DNA of 24,220 nucleotides, taken from positions 1 to 24,220 of the IMG/VR virus record IMGVR_UViG_3300007539_000218; one strand, 5' to 3'. Positions 1 to 23,003 of the stretch are shown piece after piece. Under the pieces are notes generated by a model that did not search any database, was not told where the DNA came from, and worked only from the letters and a program-made list of their open reading frames with translations. This stretch comes from a virus. Position numbers and translations under genes: made by a program. Numbering within the stretch: the first letter of the stretch is position 1; each line of letters opens with the position of its first letter.

Positions 1-2096
1 GCAGAAGATGCCAGACTTGTAATACTTGCACCAATAATATTATATTCTGCTTTTGATGAGAAGTTAGTAGTAACACTGGATGACCAACCGATTGCAGGAG
101 CACTACCAGCAATACTAGCACCCTGTAGATTGATTCTACCTTTTTGTGCCTTCAGGTCAATACCTTCTGCAGCATGAATAGATGCTTTGTTTGCACCAAT
201 GTGCCAACTACCTTTATATTCACGTGAGAAGTCTGATGCATCAGTATGAGTAGCTTCTCTTGCTCTACCGTTACCTTTTACATTACCATTCTTATCAACT
301 TCAGGACCCGAGGAGGTAAACTGTTGTGTTACACCATCAGTAGAGATTTTTTGGTCTCCATGAACCTTAAGGATTAGGTCACCATCAACTTCAATAACAT
401 AGTTGCCTTTAACATGTTCACACTTGTCACCCTCAATGATTCTAGTTTCAGTCTTTGTCTTATGCTCGTGTGTATTACCCTTTTCATCGGTAACGTGTGA
501 GTTGCCAGCATGATCAACTTTTCTTTTGAATCTCTTTCCAGGTTCAGCAGAAGACTGTTCATAAGAACCATCAATAAAGTTCTCAACCAACGTTGTTGCA
601 GCATTTAGTAGGTCTAGGTTCCATGGAGAGTTTGGTCTTGTATATGGATTATTGTCAGCCCTCTCATAACCTCTCAACACCTCGGTACTACATTCAGAGG
701 TGCCATACAACGGCATCCAGTTCTTTACCCTATCGTCTGCTTTATCTCTTCGACACGGATCTGGGAACAGCAGTTCTAATAGAATATCTAGAACAAAGTT
801 CAGGATATTTGTAATTAGATCTTTACCTTGCTGAGTTGACCAGAAGTCGGCAGTTTTACCAACTGCCTTTGCTGCTTCTGAGGCATTCTTTGCTGTCTGT
901 ATAGCATTTGCAATGCTACCAGCAATCTGAATTGCCGAACCCATACTATTCTGAATACTGCTAGTAATATTCTCAACCGTCAACAAAGCACCAGATATAT
1001 AGTCCGTTATAGTTGAAGACACTAAGTCTATAATTCCATCAGCAAAACCCTGTACTAAGTTTGCCGCATTGTTGATTGCCTGTTCAAAATTATTGCCAAT
1101 CTCAAAGTCACACATGAATCTATTGACAACACGAATAGCAGTGTCAATCAGAAGTTGATAAACAAAAGGCAATGCTGCAAATTCAGCCATAATCTGAGTT
1201 ACAGCATCACCAATCAAGTTAGCAATACCTGCTTTCAACTCAGCAAACAATCCATTGAAAGCATATGAGATGAATCTCTTAATTTTGGTGATGATTAAAT
1301 CAATATTAACGAGTGAACCAGTGATTGCCGAAAAGAACTCACCGTTATATCCCTTAGAAACCTCTCCAATCGTGACACCAAGGTCACAAAGCATATATCT
1401 CAGTGTATCGACATATTCCTGAAAATCACCCTTTTTACCGTTACTAACAGGTCTAGGACATGGATTAGGAACACCAGAAGGGTTTGCTGCGGATGCAGGT
1501 AGTTTTGTAGCACCAGCACCAGCAGGTCCTGTGTTTTGAGGTCCAGTTCCGTCATCACTACGACCAGGATTGGTGTTTAGTGATCCATTAGAAGCACTAT
1601 CGTTACTATTGACCCTAGAACCTGTTTTAGTCTGACTTCTAGTTAATTCTTGACCTAGAGCACGGTTATGATTGATTTCAGCAGTTTTGACATTTGTAAA
1701 ACCACCACCATTGCCCTTAATATCAGCAATCCATTCACCTGCTTTTAATTTCTCAGCATCATCAGTTCCTGTATTGATGAAAGAACGCAAAATACCCATA
1801 ATACAGGGTTGTTGTGCTTCTTCACCATCCAGGAAGAAACCCATTACAATGGCACCGACACCAAGTCTATTATTTGACTTACCAATGTTTTTGATGCCCA
1901 CCTCAGTAGTGGGTTGCATCACATGTGCCCATGGAAGCATATTTGTAGGGATATTCTCTTTATAGTTCTCCCCTGTGTACCAACCAGCAATACGAACTTT
2001 GACCCTACCTAGTCCTGCAGGATCCCCATCATTTTTCTCAACTTGTCCTACCCACCAAGTAAAACCGTCCTTACCAATAAATGACTGGGTTGTCAT
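1..2096 (-). CDS. 5: Baseplate central spike/hub protein, gp5-like (3' end outside window)
   Basis: Encodes the first 698 residues of a T4 gp5/VgrG-type spike protein; no stop is met before the window edge. The start is the ATG at 2096 (MTTQSFIGKDG). Residues about 5-100 look like the gp5 OB-fold: a GLGRVKVRIAGW strand, then LPWAHVMQP, then GAIVMGFFLDG and QPCIMGIL. A Ser/Asn/Gly/Pro-rich linker (about 130-190) leads to a long mostly helical region (about 200-450). From about residue 540 short polar repeats resembling the gp5C/VgrG beta-helix appear (KTETRIIEGDKCEHVKGNY, then IEVDGDLILKVHGD). I see no T4-lysozyme-like domain between the OB-fold and the helix, unlike T4 gp5; muralytic domains occur instead in the two giant proteins upstream. 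It has its own sigma70-like and late promoters, separated by a terminator from the gene before it. In T4, gp5 sits on gp27 and forms the membrane-piercing spike. Confidence 0.8.
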   Translation of the reverse strand, partial: MTTQSFIGKDGFTWWVGQVEKNDGDPAGLGRVKVRIAGWYTGENYKENIPTNMLPWAHVMQPTTEVGIKNIGKSNNRLGVGAIVMGFFLDGEEAQQPCIMGILRSFINTGTDDAEKLKAGEWIADIKGNGGGFTNVKTAEINHNRALGQELTRSQTKTGSRVNSNDSASNGSLNTNPGRSDDGTGPQNTGPAGAGATKLPASAANPSGVPNPCPRPVSNGKKGDFQEYVDTLRYMLCDLGVTIGEVSKGYNGEFFSAITGSLVNIDLIITKIKRFISYAFNGLFAELKAGIANLIGDAVTQIMAEFAALPFVYQLLIDTAIRVVNRFMCDFEIGNNFEQAINNAANLVQGFADGIIDLVSSTITDYISGALLTVENITSSIQNSMGSAIQIAGSIANAIQTAKNASEAAKAVGKTADFWSTQQGKDLITNILNFVLDILLELLFPDPCRRDKADDRVKNWMPLYGTSECSTEVLRGYERADNNPYTRPNSPWNLDLLNAATTLVENFIDGSYEQSSAEPGKRFKRKVDHAGNSHVTDEKGNTHEHKTKTETRIIEGDKCEHVKGNYVIEVDGDLILKVHGDQKISTDGVTQQFTSSGPEVDKNGNVKGNGRAREATHTDASDFSREYKGSWHIGANKASIHAAEGIDLKAQKGRINLQGASIAGSAPAIGWSSSVTTNFSSKAEYNIIGASITSLASS

Positions 2097-2120
2097 ATTT
2101 CATATTCTTTAGCTACTCTG

Positions 2121-2128
2121 TATTTATA
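2121..2128 (-). promoter_or_regulatory. T4-type late promoter of gp5
   Basis: On the minus strand this reads TATAAATA, the T4 late consensus, 25 bases before the gp5 ATG. Late promoters of this type are read by RNA polymerase with gp55 and gp33; gp33 is encoded in this window. Confidence 0.75.
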
Positions 2129-2157
2129 GCTTTTTTTCTGAACCCTCTACAAGGATT

Positions 2158-2186
2158 ATTGTACTGACTTTCCGAACCTTTGTCAA
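2158..2186 (-). promoter_or_regulatory. Sigma70-like promoter upstream of gp5
   Basis: Minus strand: TTGACA (2186-2181), a 17-base spacer, then TACAAT (2163-2158). It lies between the terminator at 2208-2239 and gp5, so gp5 appears to have both a host-type and a late promoter. No other gene lies between it and gp5. Confidence 0.65.
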
Positions 2187-2207
2187 GTCTTTGAAAACCC
2201 TATAGAC

Positions 2208-2239
2208 AAAAAAATCCCCCGAGTTTTTTTCGGGGGATT
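2208..2239 (-). terminator. Rho-independent terminator after the tail operon
   Basis: A perfect 10-bp stem (2213-2222 with 2230-2239; AATCCCCCGA arm) has a 7-base loop. It is followed on the minus strand by seven T residues (2214-2208). It closes the operon ending with the 133-residue gene and isolates gp5. Confidence 0.9.
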
Positions 2240-2265
2240 CTGTAAATCGAAGGTCGATTTTGGTT

Positions 2266-2667
2266 TTAGTCATCATAGACCAAACATTCAGGAGCACTTG
2301 GGTTGTTATCGCAATATAGTTCCAGAGATGTGGGATCGTGATGATCTTCTGGGTGATTGGCATGATATGTTTCCAACTGATTCAACTCATCCTCTAGATG
2401 ATGTGCCTTAGGAAAATTCCCGTTCTGATATGCCAGTTCAATCTCTACCTTATCATTTTCAATGTGACTTTCAATTGTTTTTTCTTGTGCAGTTTCTTCT
2501 AGACTCATTAGATCCTCTCTTCTTAATATAAGACTGATAATACTTTTTGATGATTCGTAAATTGATTTGGTGTTTAGATCTGAAATTGAACGATTTAACT
2601 TCTCACGCAAGAAGAAGATTTTGTCATCGATGTCGTCAATTAACTCGACTAAATGCTCCCTTATCAT
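2266..2667 (-). CDS. Small coiled-coil protein with CP12-like C-terminal tail
   Basis: This is a 133-residue protein of unknown function. The N-terminal half is helical and charged, with heptad-like segments (residues about 1-35 and 48-95). The C-terminus is the notable part: after a His/Asp-rich stretch (HPEDHHDPT) it ends in LELYCDNNPSAPECLVYDD. This C-x8-C followed by a terminal YDD closely resembles the C-terminal GAPDH-binding redox loop of the Calvin-cycle regulator CP12, but the central CP12 motif (AWD-VEE) is absent. The ATG at 2667 follows an AGGT 11 bases after the gp27-like stop, so it is the last gene of the tail operon and is followed by a strong terminator. A late virion-associated or late regulatory role is inference only. 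Confidence 0.75.
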   Translation of the reverse strand: MIREHLVELIDDIDDKIFFLREKLNRSISDLNTKSIYESSKSIISLILRREDLMSLEETAQEKTIESHIENDKVEIELAYQNGNFPKAHHLEDELNQLETYHANHPEDHHDPTSLELYCDNNPSAPECLVYDD

Positions 2668-2678
2668 AGCCCATACCT

Positions 2679-4013
2679 CTACTGATAAGAATCCCTTGCA
2701 ATATATATGTCGGTCTCCATTTTGCCACCTGCAGCGTATCGATGTGTAACACCACTGACCAAATAATTGCCAGAGTTTTTCTTATCAAGAACTGTGTTTT
2801 CCCCGTCCCATCTAGGCACATTGATAGTAATAACATTACCAGCAACGACACCAAAATTTCCAGGAACAGTAATTCTACCACTAATATGATCTAGTGATAA
2901 GAATCTGGACAAAGTATATGGTTTGGCATCAGCAGAAGTTTCATAGTTTCCCCCACTAATATTTTGTGCGGTTCTAATCGTCTTACCTGTTTGCCCACCA
3001 ATGGGTCCAGTATTATTAGTTGTGCTTTCTTCTCTTGTGATAGTATCCCCAAAAAGATGAGGTGATACACATGAATAGAAAACTCTCGATACTCCACCGA
3101 TCTGTTTTTCGACCTTCTGGAACTCTGAGAAGGGATTCGTACTTCCCAGATGACTCATTCTACCGTATGCTTCATTGATTGACCATCGTTTCGCTATGTT
3201 ATTTTCAGATTTCAAATTCACGAAATCAACACCGTAGAAGATACCACCGTAGGCACCCTTATTAAGATTCTCTTGTACATTTAGACCACTATCAATCACA
3301 TAGTTTCTAATTGCTAGTTGATCCTCTGGACCTGTGTTCTGAGCAACGTTCTTTGGTCTTAATGTAAACTCATACTTAGACTTTCCTTCACAGAGTTTAT
3401 CCATAGACACAAAATGAAATCCATCTAGTGCCTCATAGAATAGATATCCTGCTTGCCCTGGTTTGCTGCCACGAACTGCTTTTGCTGCTAGTTGAGCAAT
3501 AAAATCAAAGGGTCTGTAATTGGGACATATGAAAGATCCTGAGTGTTCTGTTGCTTCAATCTCAACTTTCTTTTGTGTGCCCAATCGTTTCTTCAGAACA
3601 TCACTGACAATTCCAGAGATCTTGGTATTCTTGTACGCAAATAAGAGTCTCTGATTGTCATTCAAATAACTCTCTCTAGAATTGAAGACTATATTATACT
3701 TCTTGACTTTCTCACCATCAACCAGATCACGAACCTCATTAAGATAAGTCTGCCATGTCATGCGACCACCAAATGATTCCATGTCAATATCTAGAACCTC
3801 CTGACCTACCAATTGTGTATAGAGACCTACGTTATCTTGAATGGTTAAAATAACTCTTACACTGGGACAGTCAATGCTTTGTAGAATTGTGACTCCCTGA
3901 ACATATGAAGTAATATCAGGAAATCTAGTTCCGTCTGCCTTTCTTAAAACAATACTATTAACTACAGCATCACCGACATTATTGATTCCTGCTGAGGATC
4001 TTTCCCTTGCCAT
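2679..4013 (-). CDS. Baseplate hub protein, gp27-like
   Basis: This 444-residue protein sits immediately before the spike gene gp5 and directly after the giant tail proteins. In many contractile systems that position holds the gp27/gpD hub, which carries the spike (T4 gp27 is 391 residues). It opens with a beta-rich section (SIVLRKADGTRFPDI, then VTILQSIDCPSVRVILTIQD) typical of the tube-like domains of hub proteins. A segment near residue 170 (FICPNYRPFDFIAQLAAKA) resembles the GPD-family 'few residues then FL/FI-QLA' pattern. The C-terminus again looks beta-rich (YLVSGVTHRYAAGGKMETDIYIARD), as in GPD/VgrG-like hubs. Its start overlaps the stop of the preceding gene (TAATG), which suggests coupled translation. 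The assignment rests on size, context and fold-like patterns, not on clear sequence identity to T4 gp27. Confidence 0.55.
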   Translation of the reverse strand: MARERSSAGINNVGDAVVNSIVLRKADGTRFPDITSYVQGVTILQSIDCPSVRVILTIQDNVGLYTQLVGQEVLDIDMESFGGRMTWQTYLNEVRDLVDGEKVKKYNIVFNSRESYLNDNQRLLFAYKNTKISGIVSDVLKKRLGTQKKVEIEATEHSGSFICPNYRPFDFIAQLAAKAVRGSKPGQAGYLFYEALDGFHFVSMDKLCEGKSKYEFTLRPKNVAQNTGPEDQLAIRNYVIDSGLNVQENLNKGAYGGIFYGVDFVNLKSENNIAKRWSINEAYGRMSHLGSTNPFSEFQKVEKQIGGVSRVFYSCVSPHLFGDTITREESTTNNTGPIGGQTGKTIRTAQNISGGNYETSADAKPYTLSRFLSLDHISGRITVPGNFGVVAGNVITINVPRWDGENTVLDKKNSGNYLVSGVTHRYAAGGKMETDIYIARDSYQ

Positions 4014-7000
4014 TACTTAACACCTCCACCAAGAATTTTACCTGCAATAGAACCAAGACTACCAGCAACGGTAGATGTGAGACTGGATCCAGAAGTAGAC
4101 TTCTGGAATCCAGGACTAGGTGTTCCACCACCCTGTTGTGCAGACTGAGATGCGTTGATAATTGCTTGCTGAATCATAGGTAGTATCTGTGCCATAGCCT
4201 GATCATTTAGAGCAGGTGGCAACTCTGCCATCTTGCCCTTTTCTACAAGGACACCAGCAATCACATCACTGGTAACCTTTACTAATTTATCTGTCAACAT
4301 GGTGGTTGCACCTTCCAAGTTCTGAATCTTGGCAGAATTCTGTTGAACCTGTTGTGTCTTGAGCAGTGCAGAGACCATCTTCACTGCGTTGACGTTCAGA
4401 ACTGTAGAACCACCAGGAACCAGAGCATTCTTTGCGTCAGGACCACCCATGGTGCCAGCAATCTTACCGACTGCAAAGTCTAAAGCACCCATACCAGCCT
4501 TCTTCAGGAAGTTTGATGCTCCAAGACCCTTACCTGCGACGTTCAGTGAGTCTAGTGTGCCACCAAACATCGATGTGAATCCAGGACCGAAGATCATCTC
4601 ACCACCTTGAGCAAGGATGTTGCCCATGTTGAAGTTGCCACTCATCAGTCCACTAAATGCATTATCAAATAACCCACCTGCGGACTGCATGAATCCACCG
4701 ACAGATCCACCGATCATATTACCGATACCACCAAATCCACCGATACCACCAAGTGCACCAGAGATAGCACCACCGATTCCACCACCCCCCATCATGCCAC
4801 TGATACCACCGATAGCAGCAGATGCTAGAGGTCCAATACCAGGAATAAATGATGCTGCAACTGGAGCAATAGCGCTTATTGCCTTACCGATACCACCACT
4901 AAATGCATCACCAATACCCTTTACAATACCACCAAGGAACATACGTTGTCCCTTGATTTGTGCTAATGCTTTGATTGTAGAATCCCAGGTTTTATGTGAT
5001 TTGTTACCACTAGCATATTGGTCATTATATGTACTGTCTTTTGTTCCACCCAGTCTACCTGCTGCAGTTGGACCTTGAGGCAAACCTCTCCAGGTTGGTG
5101 CTAGTTTAGCAGCAAACTCTTCGTTGGATATCTCTCCCTTGATCCAACGTTGCATACTATGACCACTATTGAGCATATCAATGGTCATTTTATCCTGAAC
5201 AGCAGGAGTAAACTTAGTGTTCTCGTCAAATCCTGATGTCTTTGCTCTACTCAAGATGTATCTTGGCATGTGCTGGTATCTACCAATAGCACCCTGAGCA
5301 TTCTTAGCTAACCAACCAATTGTTTTTTCAGTTGCCTTTGCGTTTGTTTTTCCTCTACTGGTATTGAATACATCATAGTTTCCATTTGATTCTACAGATG
5401 CAATCAAATCAAGAACACTCTTAGGGTCACCTCCAGGAGGACTCGTCCCTGTTGGTGTGGTCCCAGCTGGGTCTGTCCCTGTTGGTGTGGTCCCAGCTGG
5501 GTCTGTCGTTGTTGGTATTGTTGCAGCAGCTGCTGGACTTCCTCCAGGTAGAATACTCTTGAACCAATTCTTGATAGCATCGGTCATTGCTTCACCAAAG
5601 TCCTTTGCTGCCTGTTGATCTGATCCAGACAGACCCATAGCCTTATCCAGAATACCAGGATCAACACCAAAGATCTGTAGGATAGGACCCATCAATGTTT
5701 TTGCAATAGGTCCAAGCATATTGCCGATACCAAAAGGTATCTTACCTAACAAAGAACCTAGACCGATTAAGATTCCAGCACCTGCCATCTTGAGTGGCAT
5801 AGGAACGAGAGTTGCCATTCCCTGTGCCATCTTCTTACTGTTACCTAAGATAGCAGCAAGAGGATCATTACCAGAGTCAGTATATCTGTTCTTGATAGGA
5901 ACAACTGCTTCAGTTCCATGTGCTTCGATGGCACCACCACCAACATTGGCACGGTATCCAGAAGTCCTACCTCTAATAATACGAGCACCACCCTGAGCAG
6001 ATGGTCTTCCTGTTTGTCTTCTAAAAGGTACAATACCACCAGTTTCAAATGACCCCAGGACACTCATGGGATCACCAGCAGCACCACCCATCTCAAGGGT
6101 GTCGTTAAGTTGTGTCTTACCTTGTGCTGCCCCTGCAGGATCTGCTGATGGTGTGGATGCTTGCATTAGACCACCAACAGCAGCAGTGGTGACAATGGCA
6201 CCTAAAGCACCTTTGACGAGACCTCCTCCCTTCATTCTGCCAACACCAGCCTTAGTTGCCATGACAACTGCTTTACCAGCCTTAGCAGCAAGACCTAATG
6301 CCTTTGGTATCAGTCTGAATGCAGAGAAGATTCTCTTGACATCTTTAATAAGTTTGAAAGGATTCTTCAGATATCTGTTCACCATGAACAGAGAGAATAT
6401 CCCTACAGCAAACTGTAAGAATCCTTTAAGTCTATCTAATAGAGATGAATCACTAGCAAATATGTTAGTGAAACCTTCTAATGCATTGACAACTCCAAAC
6501 TCTACAAACTTGAAGATAATCTTACCAAGTTTTATTAAAACTTTTACTAGATCTACTGCAAGTTTTGCATTCTCTGGATTAGATAACCACTTCAATGCAC
6601 CATAAAGAACTAGAGTCTTCAGGAACTTGCCAATAGCAGCAAAAAATCCACCCCCACTTTCGGGTGTTGTATCTTCTGTACCTGATGCTGCAGCACTAGC
6701 AGGTTTTGCTTCTAATGCATTTTCTCTAGCACCTAGTCTAGCACGAGATGCTCTGATTCTTGCTTCTCTTGCTGATATTCTCTGATCTTTCGCAGCATTG
6801 ATCTTTCTCTTTCTATCCTCTGCTGCTAAACCTGCAATAGATTTATTGACCAGTCTAGCATTAGTGATCGATGCTTTGGTACTCTTATCAAGAGATAGTT
6901 TAATACTCTTCAGGATCCTGGTCTGTTCATTCAACTGACCACCAATTCTATTGAGAGCAAGGACTTGCATTCTTGGAGTCCCGTCACCTTTCGTCTTATA

Positions 7001-7084
7001 ATTTTTTCCAGCAATCTTTGCTGTCCCTCCAGTGGGTCTGACCCCACGAGGATTTACAAATTTATAGAAAGACGTTGCTGCCAT
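4013..7084 (-). CDS. Giant tape-measure-like tail protein with muramidase-like domain
   Basis: A 1023-residue, Gly/Ala-rich, hydrophobic protein. Residues 41-180 match the N-terminal part of the next giant gene (ALNRIG 43-48; LKWLSNPENA 164-173), so the two are paralogues. Several apolar helices follow (about 150-265). A low-complexity DPAGTTPTGT linker precedes a lysozyme/transglycosylase-like domain at about 555-710. There SVESNGNYDVFN places the likely catalytic Glu at 565, with GRYQHMP downstream, as in goose-type and soluble lytic transglycosylases. Residues about 720-850 are an extreme Gly/Ile/Met-rich, membrane-like region. Tail proteins that combine apolar helices with peptidoglycan-cutting domains are usually tape measures ejected during infection, and its place after gp26/gp51 fits that. 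It could instead be an inner-tail or hub-associated protein. ATG at 7084, five bases after the previous stop. Confidence 0.65.
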   Translation of the reverse strand: MAATSFYKFVNPRGVRPTGGTAKIAGKNYKTKGDGTPRMQVLALNRIGGQLNEQTRILKSIKLSLDKSTKASITNARLVNKSIAGLAAEDRKRKINAAKDQRISAREARIRASRARLGARENALEAKPASAAASGTEDTTPESGGGFFAAIGKFLKTLVLYGALKWLSNPENAKLAVDLVKVLIKLGKIIFKFVEFGVVNALEGFTNIFASDSSLLDRLKGFLQFAVGIFSLFMVNRYLKNPFKLIKDVKRIFSAFRLIPKALGLAAKAGKAVVMATKAGVGRMKGGGLVKGALGAIVTTAAVGGLMQASTPSADPAGAAQGKTQLNDTLEMGGAAGDPMSVLGSFETGGIVPFRRQTGRPSAQGGARIIRGRTSGYRANVGGGAIEAHGTEAVVPIKNRYTDSGNDPLAAILGNSKKMAQGMATLVPMPLKMAGAGILIGLGSLLGKIPFGIGNMLGPIAKTLMGPILQIFGVDPGILDKAMGLSGSDQQAAKDFGEAMTDAIKNWFKSILPGGSPAAAATIPTTTDPAGTTPTGTDPAGTTPTGTSPPGGDPKSVLDLIASVESNGNYDVFNTSRGKTNAKATEKTIGWLAKNAQGAIGRYQHMPRYILSRAKTSGFDENTKFTPAVQDKMTIDMLNSGHSMQRWIKGEISNEEFAAKLAPTWRGLPQGPTAAGRLGGTKDSTYNDQYASGNKSHKTWDSTIKALAQIKGQRMFLGGIVKGIGDAFSGGIGKAISAIAPVAASFIPGIGPLASAAIGGISGMMGGGGIGGAISGALGGIGGFGGIGNMIGGSVGGFMQSAGGLFDNAFSGLMSGNFNMGNILAQGGEMIFGPGFTSMFGGTLDSLNVAGKGLGASNFLKKAGMGALDFAVGKIAGTMGGPDAKNALVPGGSTVLNVNAVKMVSALLKTQQVQQNSAKIQNLEGATTMLTDKLVKVTSDVIAGVLVEKGKMAELPPALNDQAMAQILPMIQQAIINASQSAQQGGGTPSPGFQKSTSGSSLTSTVAGSLGSIAGKILGGGVK
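5445..5516 (-). repeat. 30-bp tandem repeat inside the giant tail gene
   Basis: Two perfect 30-bp units (5445-5474 and 5475-5504) are followed by a partial, diverging third (5505-5516). In frame they encode repeats of the decapeptide DPAGTTPTGT, a flexible linker just before the muramidase-like domain. The unit is a multiple of three, so copy number can vary without breaking the frame. Confidence 0.9.
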
Positions 7085-7089
7085 TTATA

Positions 7090-10000
7090 TTATCGACCGA
7101 AAGTTGATAGTGGTGATGGGGGTGCAGATCCACCACCTGCACCAGATTCTGCGGACATTGGTGTTGGGATTGGCATAATAATTCTCTGGACAGCACCGAT
7201 CTCAACAGGAGCTCTAGTGATACCAGGATGCAAGATACTCTCTCTATTTATCCCCGATGACTGACCCATCACTCTTGCACCACGAGTCTCAGCAACTTTT
7301 ACAAGACCACCAAGATTCTTACGTTCATAATCTTCAGGTTTATATTTCTTGCCCTGTGCCTCTGATGCTTTAATTCTTGTAGCAATAATATTCTCAGATG
7401 GAACCTCACCTGCGACACCACCAGTAGTAAATCGACCAAAGTTTACAATACCACCATGGTTCATTCTCTGCCTAATCATTTCACGAATCTTCTCTGGACC
7501 CGACCACATCTTGTCACCTTGCTTTAGTTTTGCGAGGTCCCACTTTCCACCCTGATTAGGCAGTTCTCCGTGAGTAGGTACAGTTTCTTTGGTGATGTCT
7601 GCTGCAGTCCACCCCCAATTCTTTGCAAGATTTGCAACTGCCTGAGCAAGACTTTTTACCTGAATGTCTTTGACTGGATATCTACCGAAATTGTTTTCCG
7701 ATGCCCCTGCCATTGCTGAGATTGAGAAAGAAGCATTGCCACTGTTGTTATTGTACGTGTGATATGGTGGACTCTGACCAAATGATGAGTGTCCTGGGTG
7801 CCTATTGGGAACAACAGAACCATCACCTTTCACATAACGGTGATAACCTGCCCATCCAAAATTTGCCATGATAGATCTATCATCATTATATGAACCTGCA
7901 GTCCAGTGCAAGATGATTTTTTTATTCTTCTTATTCTTACTAGTCTTATCGTCACCTATACCTGCAATTGATGGTGAGGCAGTTTCTCCTTTTGCTTTCA
8001 AGAATGCCTGAACCATGCCTGTGTTCGCAGCATTTCCATCTGCATCTGTGGTGTGTCTTAGACGACCACCAATTCCATTTATACCACCTTCATAAAACTG
8101 AAGTCCCGAACCAGTGTTGACTGCATGGAATTTTTGACCTTTGTCATCCTCAAAGAAAAACTTTTCATTCTCTTTAATTCCATAGTTTTTGTTTGGATCA
8201 AGTATGGGTGCACCTGTTGATCTTTTCACAGACTCTTCATCACCTAAACCTAGCAGGTTTGTGAGTCCAGGTGTAATACTTCTAGCAAGATCTGTAGCAG
8301 CACTTGGCAAATTGCTCAACCAACCTTTTAGTATCTCACCTAGAGCATCTTTGATTGGTTGTACAGTTGCTTGGAAGAATTTATTAAGGTGTTCCTTGAC
8401 CTGATTCTTTGCCGAGATGACAGGTGCCAGCATAGGAGTCTCACTTAGAGAGACAACACCTGCACCAAATGCTCTCTTTGCTGCAAACAACTGAGGACCA
8501 AACTCATTCCTTAGAATCTCACCACCAGGCATAATGTTGAGAAGTTCAGTAAGTGCTCCAACCAAGAAGTTTCCAGACTTCGTTCTAGGATCGTAAGCAT
8601 CAAATCCAGGACCTCTACCAGTTTCAGCACCTGGCAGTTTAGAACCAAACTCTTTGACTGTATTCATGATTGGTTCTAGTCCAAGAGACTTGACTAGCTT
8701 GTCCTCAGCATCTGTGATACCAGGAACCATACCACGAATAAAATTGTAAATATCTAGACCCATGGAAACCATAGGTCCCCATTGACCACCAGGAACCAAT
8801 CCAATCAGATCGAATGCACCAGAGGTAAACTCCAATAGTGCTCCGATCGGGTCACCATTTTTCAGTGCCTCATATCCAAAGTATAGGTTTGCAATACCAC
8901 CAACAATAGGAATTGCTTTCGATCCGATCTTCTTCATCAGACCTTCACTACCTTTGCCACCTAGTTCTTTCAGAATCTTGGCACCTTTAGGTCCAAGAAC
9001 ATTCATTAGTTTCTTTTCAATAGAACCTTTCAGTCCCCTCAGTTTACTTAGTAAAGGTTTTACATATTCAATAGCAGGTTGCACAAGTTTTCTCAAGGCA
9101 GCATCTTTAATGCCATTCAAACCTTGACCAACCTTGACTAGTCCAGACTGAAAACCATTACCAAGTTTCTTAAGACCAGCACCAGCATCACCAATACTTT
9201 TTCGTGCACCTTCTGCAACACGACCACCAAAGTTCTTTGCTCTTTGAAATTGTCTCTCAAAAAAGTTTGGACCTGAGGGTTTTGGTTTGGGTTTGGGTTT
9301 ACCACCAGGAACATCTCCACCACTAGTCTCTTTAGGTGGTTTGATTCCAGCAATACCACTAATGATATCCCAAATAAACTTCAATGATCCAATAGGATTC
9401 AATAGGAATGCAACTGATCCGATGGCAGGTAGACCTTTCAACAGGTCACCAAAACCTGTCATCAGTTCACCGACTTCACCACTCTTGACACCATTGATGA
9501 TCTTACCAATACCACCTGCAGCAGATCCAATACCATCTAATGCCCAGGTGGTCCATCCAACAACAAACTTTGCAAGAGGTTTTAACACCCACTTGTAGAA
9601 ATTTCCAAATGCATCAGCAAATCTTCTTGCATTGTTTGGATCGGACAACCACTTGAAAGCTGCCCCCATAACAAATGTTTTGAATAGTGCCCCACCGATT
9701 GCACGGAAGAATCCAAAGACACCATTCAGAATACCTAGTCCACCACCATCATCAACAGGTTTCTTATCTAAATTCTTTGCTGCTGCCTGAGAAGGTGTTG
9801 TTGGTCTTCGTCTCTGTAGATTGGGTGCTGCTAATTGTGGTCTTCTCTTCTGTCCGTTTAATCTTTTTAGTGCAGTTCTTCTTCTCTCAATATCATTAAA
9901 GAGAGACTTCTGAATCTTGTGATCTACATTGCGTCTTCTCGTCAAAGAATTTGCAATGCTACTTAGAATTGTATTGTTGGTGGAGATCTGTTTGCCCACA

Positions 10001-10101
10001 CCATTTAATGCCTTGACTGTAGGCGATGATGCTCCACCAACCTCTCTATATTGTTGAGGTTTTTGTGCTAATTTGTTCTGTGGTTTAGCAAGTGTCGCCA
10101 T
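7090..10101 (-). CDS. Giant tape-measure-like tail protein with amidase-like domain
   Basis: A 1003-residue protein, directly after gp51 (TAAATG junction). The N-terminus is basic and helical (residues 30-110). Residues 118-200 are apolar and match the neighbouring giant protein (FKWLSDPNNA 149-158), and further Gly-rich apolar helices follow to about 470. Residues about 725-870 form an amidase_2/PGRP-like domain: IILHWTAG gives a candidate zinc His at 732, YHRYVKGDGSVV follows, NSGNASFSISAMAG is the central strand, and VPTHGE gives a second His at 844, with KWDL near 855 in the place of the usual K/D-P-G end. This suggests N-acetylmuramoyl-L-alanine amidase activity that locally opens the host wall. 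Position after the gp26/gp51 chaperone pair supports a tape-measure role. The precise role of each giant protein cannot be settled from sequence alone. Confidence 0.65.
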   Translation of the reverse strand: MATLAKPQNKLAQKPQQYREVGGASSPTVKALNGVGKQISTNNTILSSIANSLTRRRNVDHKIQKSLFNDIERRRTALKRLNGQKRRPQLAAPNLQRRRPTTPSQAAAKNLDKKPVDDGGGLGILNGVFGFFRAIGGALFKTFVMGAAFKWLSDPNNARRFADAFGNFYKWVLKPLAKFVVGWTTWALDGIGSAAGGIGKIINGVKSGEVGELMTGFGDLLKGLPAIGSVAFLLNPIGSLKFIWDIISGIAGIKPPKETSGGDVPGGKPKPKPKPSGPNFFERQFQRAKNFGGRVAEGARKSIGDAGAGLKKLGNGFQSGLVKVGQGLNGIKDAALRKLVQPAIEYVKPLLSKLRGLKGSIEKKLMNVLGPKGAKILKELGGKGSEGLMKKIGSKAIPIVGGIANLYFGYEALKNGDPIGALLEFTSGAFDLIGLVPGGQWGPMVSMGLDIYNFIRGMVPGITDAEDKLVKSLGLEPIMNTVKEFGSKLPGAETGRGPGFDAYDPRTKSGNFLVGALTELLNIMPGGEILRNEFGPQLFAAKRAFGAGVVSLSETPMLAPVISAKNQVKEHLNKFFQATVQPIKDALGEILKGWLSNLPSAATDLARSITPGLTNLLGLGDEESVKRSTGAPILDPNKNYGIKENEKFFFEDDKGQKFHAVNTGSGLQFYEGGINGIGGRLRHTTDADGNAANTGMVQAFLKAKGETASPSIAGIGDDKTSKNKKNKKIILHWTAGSYNDDRSIMANFGWAGYHRYVKGDGSVVPNRHPGHSSFGQSPPYHTYNNNSGNASFSISAMAGASENNFGRYPVKDIQVKSLAQAVANLAKNWGWTAADITKETVPTHGELPNQGGKWDLAKLKQGDKMWSGPEKIREMIRQRMNHGGIVNFGRFTTGGVAGEVPSENIIATRIKASEAQGKKYKPEDYERKNLGGLVKVAETRGARVMGQSSGINRESILHPGITRAPVEIGAVQRIIMPIPTPMSAESGAGGGSAPPSPLSTFGR
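7245..7252 (-). promoter_or_regulatory. Possible internal late promoter
   Basis: Minus strand GATAAATA, one base from the T4 late consensus, lies inside the end of the amidase-carrying gene, about 160 bases before the next ATG at 7084. It could boost the downstream giant gene, but an 8-base match inside coding sequence is weak evidence. Confidence 0.25.
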
Positions 10102-10302
10102 TTAACCTTCGTATGGTGCTGATGGTTGGTTTTGTTTCTGCATCTCACGTTCCTGCTCAAGATGTTGAGTCAGCATGATCACATACAAATCCCTTTCCCA
10201 GGGCATCAAACTATCTATCTCAGTTAGACTCCACTTGTGATGTTGCACTAGGGCAAAATTAGTTCGGTAATAATTTTCCAAACTAGAGTACAACATACTC
10301 AC
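10102..10302 (-). CDS. 51: Baseplate hub assembly protein gp51-like (possible frameshift extension of gp26)
   Basis: A 66-residue protein with the pattern W-x3-EID-LMPWERDLYVIML (residues about 24-44), which resembles the second part of tail-assembly chaperones and cyanophage gp51. In T4, gp51 helps assemble the central hub and is not retained in the virion. It lies in the -1 frame of gp26 and overlaps its stop. The open frame can start at GTG 10302 or ATG 10296, but neither has a well-spaced Shine-Dalgarno; the only purine-rich sequence (GAGGGA 10325-10320) is 17 bases before the GTG. That makes expression as a gp26-gp51 fusion by -1 frameshifting attractive. The following tape-measure-like gene starts immediately after its stop. 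Confidence 0.6.
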   Translation of the reverse strand: MSMLYSSLENYYRTNFALVQHHKWSLTEIDSLMPWERDLYVIMLTQHLEQEREMQKQNQPSAPYEG

Positions 10303-10325
10303 CCGAAAAAAGACGCAAGTCCCTC
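10286..10325 (-). promoter_or_regulatory. Candidate programmed -1 ribosomal frameshift signal
   Basis: Reading the minus strand in the gp26 frame, GAGGGA (10325-10320) lies 8 bases before the heptamer T TTT TTC (10311-10305), which is correctly phased as X XXY YYZ. Four bases later comes a 5-bp hairpin, GAGTA-TGTTG-TACTC (10300-10286). The gp26 TGA stop is at 10301-10299, one codon after the heptamer. A -1 slip continues as CGG GTG AGT ATG straight into gp51. Upstream SD-like element, slippery heptamer and downstream hairpin are the same three parts found in bacterial dnaX frameshifting. Confidence 0.6.
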
Positions 10326-11024
10326 AAGAACAACTTCACTCTTCACTTTAGTCTCTGGATTAGTGACTTCAGTTTTCCATTGCAACTTAGGCATGGTTTC
10401 AAAGAATGATTGCAGTTTCATAAACTGATCGTTAGTCAGACTCTCCAAGAATTCAGTGACTTCTTTCTTGGTACAGTCTTTAGTTTCCCACACTTCTTCA
10501 CCTTGGAAGATTTGTGAGATACAACCTGCAGCAATAGAGAAGACAGCGTCAACAGAATCTGATTGAGTAGTTCCTTCACCAGAGATGTTCTCTTTCACAA
10601 AGGTATCAAGACTAGGATAAGTCATGACAACACCAGTGTCATCATCAAGCATGATCTTGGGATCATGACCCTCAGGTTTTTCACATACAACTTCCTCTAG
10701 AGGAACTTTGATCTTAATTTCTGTCACACCGTCGTCAGGTGCAGTGATAATAACATCTGCTTCTTCACCTGCTGACTTAGCACGAATGCGAAGGAACAGA
10801 TATTCGATGTCAAACGTGGGAAGATTATCAATCTTACGTTTGATCGATGTGCAGTTACGGATGATAGACTTGACAGCATTCATCATGTCTTTTTCACTGT
10901 TCGATTCCATAGCCATCAGAAGAATCTTCTCTTCCTTAACCAGGAACGGACGGTATTTTACTTTTTCACCTGTAGAAGGCAACTCACATTCGTACTCAGG
11001 TACGACAAGCTTTGGCAAAGGCAT
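10299..11024 (-). CDS. 26: Baseplate hub assembly protein gp26
   Basis: A 241-residue protein that resembles T4 gp26 (208 residues; the T4 baseplate family of hub-assembly proteins). Recognisable parts are the start (MPLPKLVVPEYECELPSTG), the conserved VKYRPFLVKEEKILLMAMES segment (residues about 22-41), and the helical C-terminal part with CTKKEVTEFLESL and MKLQSFFETMPKLQW. These resemble tail chaperone proteins that bind the tape measure during assembly. It is followed by gp51 in the -1 frame with a candidate frameshift signal in its last four codons, then by the tape-measure-like genes. This is the same order as chaperone, frameshifted chaperone and tape measure in lambda-like phages. Confidence 0.75.
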   Translation of the reverse strand: MPLPKLVVPEYECELPSTGEKVKYRPFLVKEEKILLMAMESNSEKDMMNAVKSIIRNCTSIKRKIDNLPTFDIEYLFLRIRAKSAGEEADVIITAPDDGVTEIKIKVPLEEVVCEKPEGHDPKIMLDDDTGVVMTYPSLDTFVKENISGEGTTQSDSVDAVFSIAAGCISQIFQGEEVWETKDCTKKEVTEFLESLTNDQFMKLQSFFETMPKLQWKTEVTNPETKVKSEVVLEGLASFFG

Positions 11025-11053
11025 GGTTTAAAACTCAGTTTCAGTTTAGTTAT

Positions 11054-11680
11054 TTAGTCGTCAAAGAAGGATGTCTTTCCAAGAACTTCAGCAGCAAGAT
11101 TGAATGCACCACCTTGCCTGAATCTGTATCGTTCTACCTTGAAAGAAATTCTAGTTTGAAGTAGTTGTGTTCTAGCAGAACTTAATTGGTATGGACTGAT
11201 ATTATATGGCAAAGCATTTTCAATGTCCCATCTACCAGTAATAGAAGTTGCGGTTGGTTTCTCTTTTCTACCGTTCTTCTCTAACTTATAGATGATCATT
11301 CTAGGTGATACAATGTCGTTGTAATAGTTGACAACGTTACCAGTATCATCATGAATAGCAGCATACCATGCCTCAAAAAATCTGTTGAAGTCTAGATCTT
11401 TTGGAGACATCAGATTAAGAGTCACCTCACCATAAACAGTTCCTGTGGCATAGTTAATTCCAACACCATGGTCTCTGTGCTGTGCTGTGGTGACCTGTTT
11501 GGTGGGAGTAGATACAGAATCGCAATAGAAGTTTAGAATCTCACCTAGATTCTGACCATCAATAGTAAAAGTTTCTCCTGCTAAGACATTGGGAACTTGT
11601 AACTGTACAGCATACCTATTACTGGTTGCAAAACCAGCATTAGATAATTTTGTAAGCATTGAACTGACATCGAGTGTCAT
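11054..11680 (-). CDS. Tail-tube-fold protein, probably gp54-like tube initiator
   Basis: This 208-residue protein has the signature arrangement of the T4 gp19/gp54 tail-tube family: ATSNRYAVQLQVP near residues 18-31, a FYCDSVSTPTKQV segment near 51-63, a YGEVTLNLMSPKDLDFNRFFEAWYAAI strand-helix region near 83-110, and a final beta strand (TRISFKVERYRF). T4 gp54 (320 residues) caps the baseplate centre and starts tube polymerisation. This protein is shorter, so gp54-like is a best guess; a second tube protein is the alternative. It lies between a possible gp2 gene and gp26, in the same leftward operon. Confidence 0.5.
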   Translation of the reverse strand: MTLDVSSMLTKLSNAGFATSNRYAVQLQVPNVLAGETFTIDGQNLGEILNFYCDSVSTPTKQVTTAQHRDHGVGINYATGTVYGEVTLNLMSPKDLDFNRFFEAWYAAIHDDTGNVVNYYNDIVSPRMIIYKLEKNGRKEKPTATSITGRWDIENALPYNISPYQLSSARTQLLQTRISFKVERYRFRQGGAFNLAAEVLGKTSFFDD

Positions 11681-11683
11681 TGA

Positions 11684-12169
11684 TTACCCCCAGACTTTTT
11701 TAGCAGGAATTCTTCTACTCCCGTTAGGTGCTAGTGGTGATTCGTCTACAAAATACTCTAATGGTAGTTGCACTGAATCCCACTCTTCCTCAGGGATCTT
11801 ATATACAGGAGATTTGATCTCAGTATTTCTATATCTATGTATAGTAGAACGTGGAAAGAATAATTCTGCCCGAGTATCAGATGCTTTGATCTGGTTTACC
11901 GTACCAAGTCTAGAACCAGGAGCAAGGTAATGTAGATTTGCACCCAACCATCCAGTTCCATCTACAGCAATACAATATACCATAGGGTATCTATCGTACC
12001 ACTCCATTCTTTCAGGTTGCTTAGCAGTGTAATGAAAGTAATAGATACCACCCACCTGTGGTCTGGACTGTTGGAATCCTTGGATACGTTTAGTCCACTG
12101 CTTCCTATACCAAGTCTCACTCTTACCAGACCCCTTGGTTAATGATTGTATGTCTGTAAAGATGCTCAT
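11684..12169 (-). CDS. Head-completion-region protein, possibly gp2-like DNA end protector
   Basis: 161 residues when started at the ATG at 12169, which overlaps the gp4 stop as ATGA; a longer start at 12208 would run deep into gp4 and is less likely. The segment VGGIYYFHYTAKQPERMEWYDRYPMV (about residues 39-64), followed by GWLGANLHYL, resembles a conserved domain of proteins annotated as DNA end protector (gp2) in T4-like phages. In T4, genes 2 and 4 are neighbours near gene 53, which fits. T4 gp2 is much longer (about 274 residues), and I cannot verify the relationship. If correct, it would protect packaged DNA ends from host exonuclease after ejection. Confidence 0.45.
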   Translation of the reverse strand: MSIFTDIQSLTKGSGKSETWYRKQWTKRIQGFQQSRPQVGGIYYFHYTAKQPERMEWYDRYPMVYCIAVDGTGWLGANLHYLAPGSRLGTVNQIKASDTRAELFFPRSTIHRYRNTEIKSPVYKIPEEEWDSVQLPLEYFVDESPLAPNGSRRIPAKKVWG

Positions 12170-14270: not shown

Positions 14271-14660
14271 TTACCACCTGTAGTTGTCGTTGTAACTACC
14301 ACATGCTCTCCAAACAATTTCTGTTTCCCATGTGGTGTATCCCTCATGATAGTAATCACCTGGGATGTACCGTTCCCGTCTCACCTTATACCTACACCGT
14401 CTTGGTCTAGGGGGAGCATGGTGATAATGATGCACCTCACGTTCGTAATGATGGTGGTGCTTATCATTGAATGGTTCCCAGAACTCTCCCCAGGTGATTG
14501 CTTGAGCTGGTGCTGCTGACACCCCAACCAGCACTGCACAGGCAGCAAGCAGTTTCTTTTTGAGAGACTGCCTGCGTTTCTTTGCTTGACGCATTGCCTG
14601 TGGTTTCAGATGACGTTTCTGTTCCTTTTTGGAATGATGTTGCCAGTTGGGGGTAGTCAT
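14271..14660 (-). CDS. His-rich secreted protein of unknown function
   Basis: This 129-residue protein has a very basic N-terminus, then a clear signal peptide (hydrophobic LLAACAVLVGVSAAPAQA, likely cleavage after residue 54). The mature part begins ITWGEFWEPF, has a dense His stretch (KHHHHYEREVHHYHHAPP, about 68-85), Arg/Tyr-rich strands and two Cys (89 and 120) that could form a disulfide. The ATG at 14660 follows GAGGA with good spacing, two bases after the gp32 stop. An internal ATG at 14594 would give a more ordinary signal peptide length. A metal-binding envelope protein is possible, but no family is recognised. Confidence 0.7.
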   Translation of the reverse strand: MTTPNWQHHSKKEQKRHLKPQAMRQAKKRRQSLKKKLLAACAVLVGVSAAPAQAITWGEFWEPFNDKHHHHYEREVHHYHHAPPRPRRCRYKVRRERYIPGDYYHEGYTTWETEIVWRACGSYNDNYRW

Positions 14661-21192: not shown

Positions 21193-21564
21193 TCAGAAGG
21201 TGAACTTCAGACCTGCCTTGGTCCCGTAAGAACGGTCAACACCAGCAACGCCCGAACCAACGAACGAAACTTCACCGTAAGCAGACAGTTGCTCGGTCAG
21301 ACCAGCAGAGATACCTGCCTTACCCGAAGGAACGGTGTCAGAAGCACCACCGTCAGGAGCCACGATGGTAGCACCACCCTGAACGTACCAAGCAGCAGAC
21401 TCACCCAGAGCACCTTCGTAGCCCACGTGGGTGTCGATGTTGGTGCCAGAGTAGTTGCTACCAGAGAAACCAGAGTTGGCTTCAACGTTCACGTAGGGAC
21501 CTGCAAGGGCAGCACCTGCGAAAAGGGGAGCAGCAGCCAGTGCTGCGAATGCGGATTTGATCAT
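21193..21564 (-). CDS. Small secreted, porin-like beta-barrel protein
   Basis: 123 residues. A signal peptide (MIKSAFAALAAAPLFAGAALA) is probably cut after residue 21. The mature part has alternating polar and aromatic strands (YVNVEANSGF, THVGYEGAL, AAWYVQGGATIV, AYGEVSFVGSG) and ends in Phe (KAGLKFTF), the classic outer-membrane barrel C-terminus. The size would give a very small barrel or part of one. Base use is more GC-rich than in neighbouring genes, with GCA/GCC/GGT/ACC codons prominent, suggesting high expression or host origin. It is transcribed from a late promoter and from the tRNA promoter upstream. Function unknown. Confidence 0.7.
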   Translation of the reverse strand: MIKSAFAALAAAPLFAGAALAGPYVNVEANSGFSGSNYSGTNIDTHVGYEGALGESAAWYVQGGATIVAPDGGASDTVPSGKAGISAGLTEQLSAYGEVSFVGSGVAGVDRSYGTKAGLKFTF

Positions 21565-21734
21565 TTTAATACCTCGTAATTTTTACTTGTGGAATGGTTA
21601 CCCACAGATGAAAGGGACTTCGACTCGTCCCGTTAGTGTAAGTTTACTACAATTCTGATCCGAGTAGTTGAGGGATCTCTGACTGTTGTAAAACTTTACA
21701 TGTTATTTATACACTTTATTGTTTAAAAGTGTAA
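21565..21734 (-). promoter_or_regulatory. Structured leader and late promoter of the porin-like gene
   Basis: This 170-base gap contains an exact late promoter, TATAAATA on the minus strand at 21711-21704, about 140 bases before the ATG. Two small hairpins lie in the leader: GGGAC/GTCCC (21614-21618 with 21627-21631) and TGTGG/CCACA just downstream. A GAGGT ribosome site precedes the ATG. No other open frame is convincing here. Confidence 0.65.
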
Positions 21735-21819
21735 CGGAGAGGGTGGGATTTGAACCCACGGAGGTGTTACCCTCGTCGGTTTTCAAGACCGATGCCATAA
21801 ACCACTCGACCACCTCTCC
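21735..21819 (-). tRNA. tRNA-Ser (anticodon UGA)
   Basis: 85 bases. The acceptor stem GGAGAGG pairs with CCTCTCC. The D-arm contains GTCGAGTGGTTTATGGC, and the anticodon stem TCGGT/ACCGA carries the loop CTTGAAA with anticodon TGA. The long variable arm typical of class II serine tRNA is present, and the T-arm is GTGGG-TTCAAAT-CCCAC. CCA is not encoded. A perfect consensus promoter lies immediately upstream. Confidence 0.97.
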
Positions 21820-21829
21820 AATAGAATCA

Positions 21830-22238: not shown

Positions 22239-22350
22239 ACTTTTTAATATACTCTCGTAGTTCAGGTGTCTCTTCCCACTCCCACAATTGATTGTGTTGG
22301 GGATCTTTCTTTTGAATAAGGTGCTGCTTCTTCATAGTACGGACAATCAT
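22222..22350 (-). CDS. Tiny conserved protein after talC
   Basis: 42 residues: MIVRTMKKQHLIQKKDPQHN, then QLWEWEETPELREYIKKYGKTN. Its ATG overlaps the talC TGA (ATGA), so it is probably translated by coupling to talC. An internal ATG at codon 6 is an alternative start. The KDPQHNQLWEWEETPE segment seems familiar from other cyanophages. Function unknown. Confidence 0.6.
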   Translation of the reverse strand: MIVRTMKKQHLIQKKDPQHNQLWEWEETPELREYIKKYGKTN

Positions 22351-23003
22351 TTGATTTTCTCCTGTAGTTCAGCCCAGTCTTTGTCAAAGAGTTCTAAACC
22401 TTTGTCAGTGAGAATGTGCTGATACATCTTATTATACACTGAGAATGGCATTGTGACAACATCTGCACCGTATTTAAATGAATCAATAACATGCTTCACA
22501 CTACGGATAGATGCAGACAGGACTTGAGTGTCAGTCTGTCCATCAAAAATACCAGCAATCTCTCTGATCAATGTGATACCGTCAAAGGATTGGTCATCGA
22601 CTCTACCTACGAAAGGGGAAACATAGGTAGCACCTGCTTTTGCAGCAAGAATTGCTTGTGCAGGTGAGAAGACAAGAGTAACATTAACAGTTCTTTTTAG
22701 ATCTGTCAAGTACCTACATGCTTTCAGTCCTTCAAAAGACATAGGTACTTTAATGGTGATGTTCTCAGCATAATCAATGTAAGGTTGTGCCTGAGCAAGC
22801 ATCTCTTCGTGATGACCACCGACAACCTCTGCAGAGATCGATGCAGACTCAGGGAACAGGTCAGAGATCTTCTTAATAACTTCTAGTGGATCTTTGCCTT
22901 GCTTAAGCATGAGAGATGGGTTAGTAGTGACCCCATCAATAAATCCCAAATGTGCCACCTCTTCGATTTCGTAGAAGTCTGAAGAGTCTAAAAAGATTTT
23001 CAT
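22347..23003 (-). CDS. talC: Transaldolase TalC
   Basis: A 218-residue member of the small TalC/FSA-type transaldolase family (not the larger host TalB). The Schiff-base lysine is Lys85 in NITIKVP, the same number as in E. coli FSA. Asp6, TTNPS (26-30) and SAEV (57-60) are further active-site elements. In cyanophages TalC is thought to push host carbon flux into the pentose phosphate pathway, giving NADPH and ribose phosphate for nucleotide synthesis during infection. The promoter's TATAAT lies 20 bases upstream; no clear Shine-Dalgarno is seen. A coupled 42-residue gene follows. Confidence 0.96.
   Translation of the reverse strand: MKIFLDSSDFYEIEEVAHLGFIDGVTTNPSLMLKQGKDPLEVIKKISDLFPESASISAEVVGGHHEEMLAQAQPYIDYAENITIKVPMSFEGLKACRYLTDLKRTVNVTLVFSPAQAILAAKAGATYVSPFVGRVDDQSFDGITLIREIAGIFDGQTDTQVLSASIRSVKHVIDSFKYGADVVTMPFSVYNKMYQHILTDKGLELFDKDWAELQEKIK

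Follow-up and report, generated by a model that had tools for sequence, protein, structure and literature searches.

Cyanophage CP12 and the window examined

CP12 is a small protein of photosynthetic microbes that switches off carbon fixation. Its C-terminal part binds GAPDH (PMC11257934), and in Synechocystis the loss of the C-terminal cysteine pair (GapDH2 binding) resembles a deletion of cp12, an effect not seen when the N-terminal pair is lost (Lucius et al. 2022, reviewed in PMC11257934). The host CP12-N/C forms carry this N-terminal pair together with the classical AWD_VEE motif, which several recognised classes lack, and C-only forms have been recognised in both cyanobacteria and cyanophages (PMC3906501).

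In cyanomyoviruses, CP12 corresponds to T4-GCs 337 and 63 and is present in 15 of 16 genomes, positioned by psbA or near gp5 (Sullivan et al. 2010, PMC3037559). The T4-GC337 / phrog_627 type (P-SSM7 gp14, P-HM2 gp227, S-RIM50, S-WAM2) has the full domain and a C-x8-C tail with no N-terminal cysteine pair; it is a stand-alone protein of about 70-81 aa that starts soon after a T4-GC15 tail gene and, except in P-HM2, lies between that gene and gp5. The T4-GC63 / phrog_2603 type (Syn1 gp235, S-CAM1) has the same C-x8-C-x2-[YF]-D tail, but its N-terminal body is different and in isolates it is found away from gp5. In P-HM2, both cp12 and talC belong to the middle genes and are strongly expressed (PMC5082946), with cp12 sited beside talC. 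The function, frequency and position of cp12 in cyanophages are thus already known.

Here we analyse a gene in a window of 24,220 nucleotides, the whole stretch of viral DNA under study (IMG/VR record IMGVR_UViG_3300007539_000218). Judged by its sequence, the gene is a virus copy of CP12 of the kind already known in cyanophages, and its one unusual property is an in-frame coding stretch ahead of the CP12 domain. The window represents a deep uncultured T4-like cyanophage lineage: a megablast of its positions 1-12000 against isolate phages gave no match, its tail tube is about 30% identical to those of isolates, and its talC, which the first-pass annotation had placed in the window and which lies at 22347-23003, reaches up to about 67%. 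Elsewhere the window encodes a protein of 123 aa (21193-21564) that seems to have a signal peptide and an outer-membrane-like sequence and is matched over its whole length by phrog_417, a family without assigned function; a His-rich protein of 129 aa (14271-14660) with what looks like a signal or membrane segment, the two halves of the protein matching different families (phrog_3309 and phrog_767); and a tRNA-Ser gene with anticodon TGA (21734-21820).

A complete CP12 domain at the usual site

The open frame of 133 aa ends ...LELYCDNNPSAPECLVYDD and contains two cysteines in all, C119 and C128, in a C-x8-C spacing. This loop had been noted for its likeness to the GAPDH-binding tail of CP12, and the likeness is real. 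The Pfam CP12 profile PF02672 aligns from end to end (profile 1-70 of 70) with residues 65-132 at 53.4 bits, against a gathering score of 22.7 bits (E 4.6e-14), and phrog_627, the standard cyanophage CP12 family, matches residues 63-133 on profile positions 2-75 (E 2.2e-21); both values are far above chance. The top PDB matches are solved CP12 chains (6gfo, E 2.2e-5; the GAPDH-bound tail peptide 3zdf, E 4.6e-4), with the cyanobacterial CBS-CP12 (5nmu) also among the matches, and the tail shares 13/21 residues with that of T. elongatus (6gfo/3zdf) and 11/16 with that of S. elongatus (3b1j). Loss of both cysteines in close homologues had been proposed as a refutation; both are kept in 27 of 27 aligned sequences. 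The tail of the window's protein also has the [YF]-[DE] end. The remainder of the protein had been described as an unrelated coiled coil. In fact phage CP12 takes up all of residues 63-133, which leaves residues 1-53 (to about 62) as the sole part outside it.

Two classical features are absent. With two cysteines in all, the protein has no N-terminal (PRK-side) pair, which rules out the classical N/C class and not CP12 itself. It is also free of tryptophan and has no AWD_VEE core motif, the corresponding region reading HLEDELNQLE; the motif is likewise absent from the other aligned cyanophage CP12 rows. Because both features are missing, PRK binding by this CP12 is doubtful.

The gene was said to be the last of a tail operon, and it is the last before an intrinsic terminator (Table 1); on the evidence of gene order in isolates, this is a normal cp12 position. 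In the window it lies between a phrog_350 tail gene and phrog_694, the same site as in P-SSM7, a location that is common and not universal. In S-RIM50, S-WAM2, S-RIM2 and P-SSM7, cp12 comes after a tail protein gene (T4-GC15 in P-SSM7) and ahead of a baseplate hub gene, be it gp5 or another; in some cases cpeT, tRNAs or further small genes lie between. Between the cp12 terminator and gp5, a near-consensus sigma-70 promoter and a late-type CTATAAATA stand in tandem (2121-2186); close upstream of cp12, the cyanophage late motif was not found.

This setting bears on the idea that the gene encodes a tail or virion structural protein whose cysteine loop is a phage tag or has only a chance likeness to CP12. 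Its neighbours are indeed virion proteins (T4-GC15 was detected in S-SM1 particles; PMC3037559) and cp12 ends their operon, but the whole CP12 domain is matched, stand-alone cp12 genes occupy the same site in several isolates, and the tail is found only in records under cyanophage-type names, so that we regard a structural role as very improbable. The earlier proposal of a CP12-like function on a structural-operon protein therefore stands in its CP12 part, and a tail grafted onto a structural coiled coil is rejected: the domain (PF02672) is complete, stand-alone homologues of 70-75 aa share the site, and cp12 beside gp5 has been published, which together identify a CP12 inhibitor gene, as opposed to one for a structural protein that has borrowed a tag. 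The alternative of a common phage C-terminal tag was also rejected, as all 432 records from the tail search were under Synechococcus, Prochlorococcus, Cyanophage or 'Marine' names.

Table 1. Features of the cp12 locus (window coordinates)
Feature	Position	Strand	Detail
gp5-like baseplate hub and tail lysozyme, phrog_694, cut by window end	1..2096	-	E 1.7e-109
T4-type late promoter-like motif CTATAAATA before gp5	2121..2129	-	
Promoter-like TTGACA-17-TACAAT for next gene (gp5)	2158..2186	-	11/12; same in L074
Intrinsic terminator after cp12	2211..2241	-	same element in L074
Whole open frame, leader and CP12, 133 aa	2266..2667	-	
Probable CP12 gene proper from internal ATG (M54), 80 aa	2266..2508	-	boundary of cassette swap in L074
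C-terminal GAPDH-binding-type tail with C119, C128	2269..2334	-	13/21 residues identical to T. elongatus tail (3zdf/6gfo)
CP12 domain PF02672, residues 65-132	2272..2475	-	E 4.6e-14
53-codon in-frame leader, residues 1-53, predicted helical hairpin	2509..2667	-	62% to L074
Shine-Dalgarno-like site before internal ATG	2512..2520	-	anti-SD duplex energy -9.1
Upstream tail protein, phrog_350 (T4-GC15 in relatives)	2679..4013	-	E 1.1e-84

An in-frame leader ahead of CP12

The C-x8-C tail is carried by an open frame of 70 or 75 aa in 68 of 69 IMG/VR loci; the odd one out (L069) stops where the sequence retrieved for it stops, and all 68 complete relatives have one of these two lengths. Against the stand-alone T4-GC337 / phrog_627 proteins, the window adds 53 in-frame codons, and this leader is what is new. 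A start at M54 would give 80 aa, that is, the usual stand-alone form (about 70-81 aa, a range that is not a family requirement).

A search of viral contigs with the leader found a single relative, on contig L074, with 62% identity over residues 1-55; the tail protein on the same contig is 86% identical to the window's. The window leader has no homologue among phage isolates and no relative in prokaryote genomes, and a profile search gave weak, non-significant matches only. With the L074 leader, the isolates yielded only a 43% match to an Acinetobacter phage (E 0.2), and the genes upstream of phrog_2603 in S-CAM1, Syn1 and Sf-FP1, compared by eye, bear no likeness to it. Identification of the leader as a known small gene was accordingly rejected, since isolates, profiles and prokaryote genomes gave no significant match.

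Comparison of the two leaders gives dN 0.19 and dS 1.23 over codons 12-50 (dN/dS about 0.15), and the differences at codon positions 1, 2 and 3 number 11, 3 and 21 over codons 11-55 (p 0.0009). Both phages keep the leader open in frame, and stops interrupt the other two frames. On the low dN/dS, the third-position bias and the stops in the other frames, the leader, or at least its part from about codon 12 onwards, has the look of a translated sequence, as judged from this one pair of contigs. Because codons 2-12 all differ in amino acid between the window and L074, the start of the longer product is uncertain.

A probable internal start at the boundary of a CP12 swap

In L074, residues 54-129 match phrog_2603 (profile 1-76, E 3e-40), beginning exactly at the internal ATG, and this part is 90% identical to the stand-alone S-CAM1 protein and 87% to Syn1 gp235, which is labelled T4-GC63, one of the two published CP12 clusters. 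By these matches, two different CP12 types stand behind the same leader, and the boundary between them is precisely the internal ATG. The T4-GC63-type CP12 of L074 (L074:3160-3390) lies in the gp5-side cp12 slot, equivalent to that of the window; isolates carry phrog_2603 elsewhere, beside td in Syn1 and S-RIM44 and among small genes in S-CAM1.

Shine-Dalgarno-like sites precede the internal ATG in both phages, AGAGAGGAT in the window and AGGGAGGAT in L074, with anti-SD duplex energies of -9.1 and -12.3 respectively, compared with -7.1 and -4.5 at the first ATG. From the position of the swap boundary and the strong site in both phages we infer that M54 is a real start, and it is most likely the start of CP12 proper. 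A point against is that synonymous sites just ahead of M54 show weak local constraint (2/9 against 11/22 identical-residue codons changed). If the leader is translated, the absence of a stop codon in it would be expected to yield a longer protein as well.

These features have to be weighed against two rival arrangements. The 80-aa product of M54 may be the only one, the 53 upstream codons being a decayed or remnant small gene that is barely translated; the ribosome site and swap boundary, which both fall at M54, agree with this, as do the lack of leader homologues in phage isolates and prokaryote genomes and the unconserved first 12 leader residues. However, a dN/dS of about 0.15 over codons 12-50, a clear codon-position bias and a leader open in frame in both phages are at odds with decay, and we hold this explanation to be possible, though unlikely. 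The opposite arrangement, a single 133-aa protein made from the first ATG, with CP12 held permanently on a hairpin that makes it oligomerise or binds a further partner, draws on the frame being continuous in both phages and on a confident hairpin prediction (helices 2-29 and 33-60, mean pLDDT 91.5). It also has precedents: cyanobacterial CBS-CP12 (5nmu) and plant GapB (PMC3906501) both carry CP12 as a C-terminal domain. Nostoc CBS-CP12 is like the window in that CP12 is the C-terminal part of a longer protein, but there the preceding part is a CBS domain and here it is a short predicted helical hairpin. A cassette swap placed exactly on the ATG with the better Shine-Dalgarno site of the two, with two different CP12 types set at M54, speaks against a fusion alone, which we consider improbable.

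Predicted structure

An AlphaFold2 model (mean pLDDT 91.5, pTM 0.56) was built from an alignment of 20 sequences that comprised the window and IMG/VR loci only, with the leader part drawn from two sequences. Beyond the putative leader hairpin, it has predicted helices at 65-81 and 85-104 in the CP12 body and at 114-121 and 126-131 in the tail. A search of viral structures gave one match with E below 0.001, the CP12 of phage S-T4 (E 2e-4). A PDB structure search with the leader returned generic helical hairpins only, which imply no function.

Proposed function

We propose, with a probability of about 0.75, that this is a phage cp12 of the T4-GC337 / phrog_627 type at its usual site, encoding a GAPDH-blocking loop, with M54 as the most likely start and possibly an additional 133-aa form. 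In the oxidised state a C119-C128 disulfide would close the C-terminal loop, which most likely blocks host GAPDH by inserting into it. This would slow the Calvin cycle and direct sugar and NADPH through the pentose phosphate pathway, a diversion of carbon that the phage talC would assist, by analogy with the family. CP12 proper would most likely be initiated at M54 from its own Shine-Dalgarno site, and initiation at the first ATG would also yield the 133-aa form with the helical hairpin in front, as the coding signal suggests.

More tentatively, the locus may be a two-product one that makes free CP12 from M54 and a longer hairpin-CP12, with phages swapping CP12 types behind a conserved leader and ribosome site; we put this at somewhat worse than even odds. 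If it is true, the long form would gain a second role through its hairpin, for example by oligomerising GAPDH-bound CP12 or by linking CP12 to a further partner from host or phage.

What the striking tail represents is a commonplace means, described before, by which cyanophages shut down host carbon fixation; the gene is therefore not to be filed as a new moonlighting tail protein. It is a cyanophage metabolic gene of the ordinary kind, lying where cp12 usually lies, and the variation is in the in-frame leader and the CP12 cassette swap. Together with the leader, the exact exchange of one CP12 type for another at a single ATG suggests that selection favours having some CP12 at this position, whatever its body, and the locus offers a simple test of whether one phage makes both a long and a short CP12 that do different jobs.
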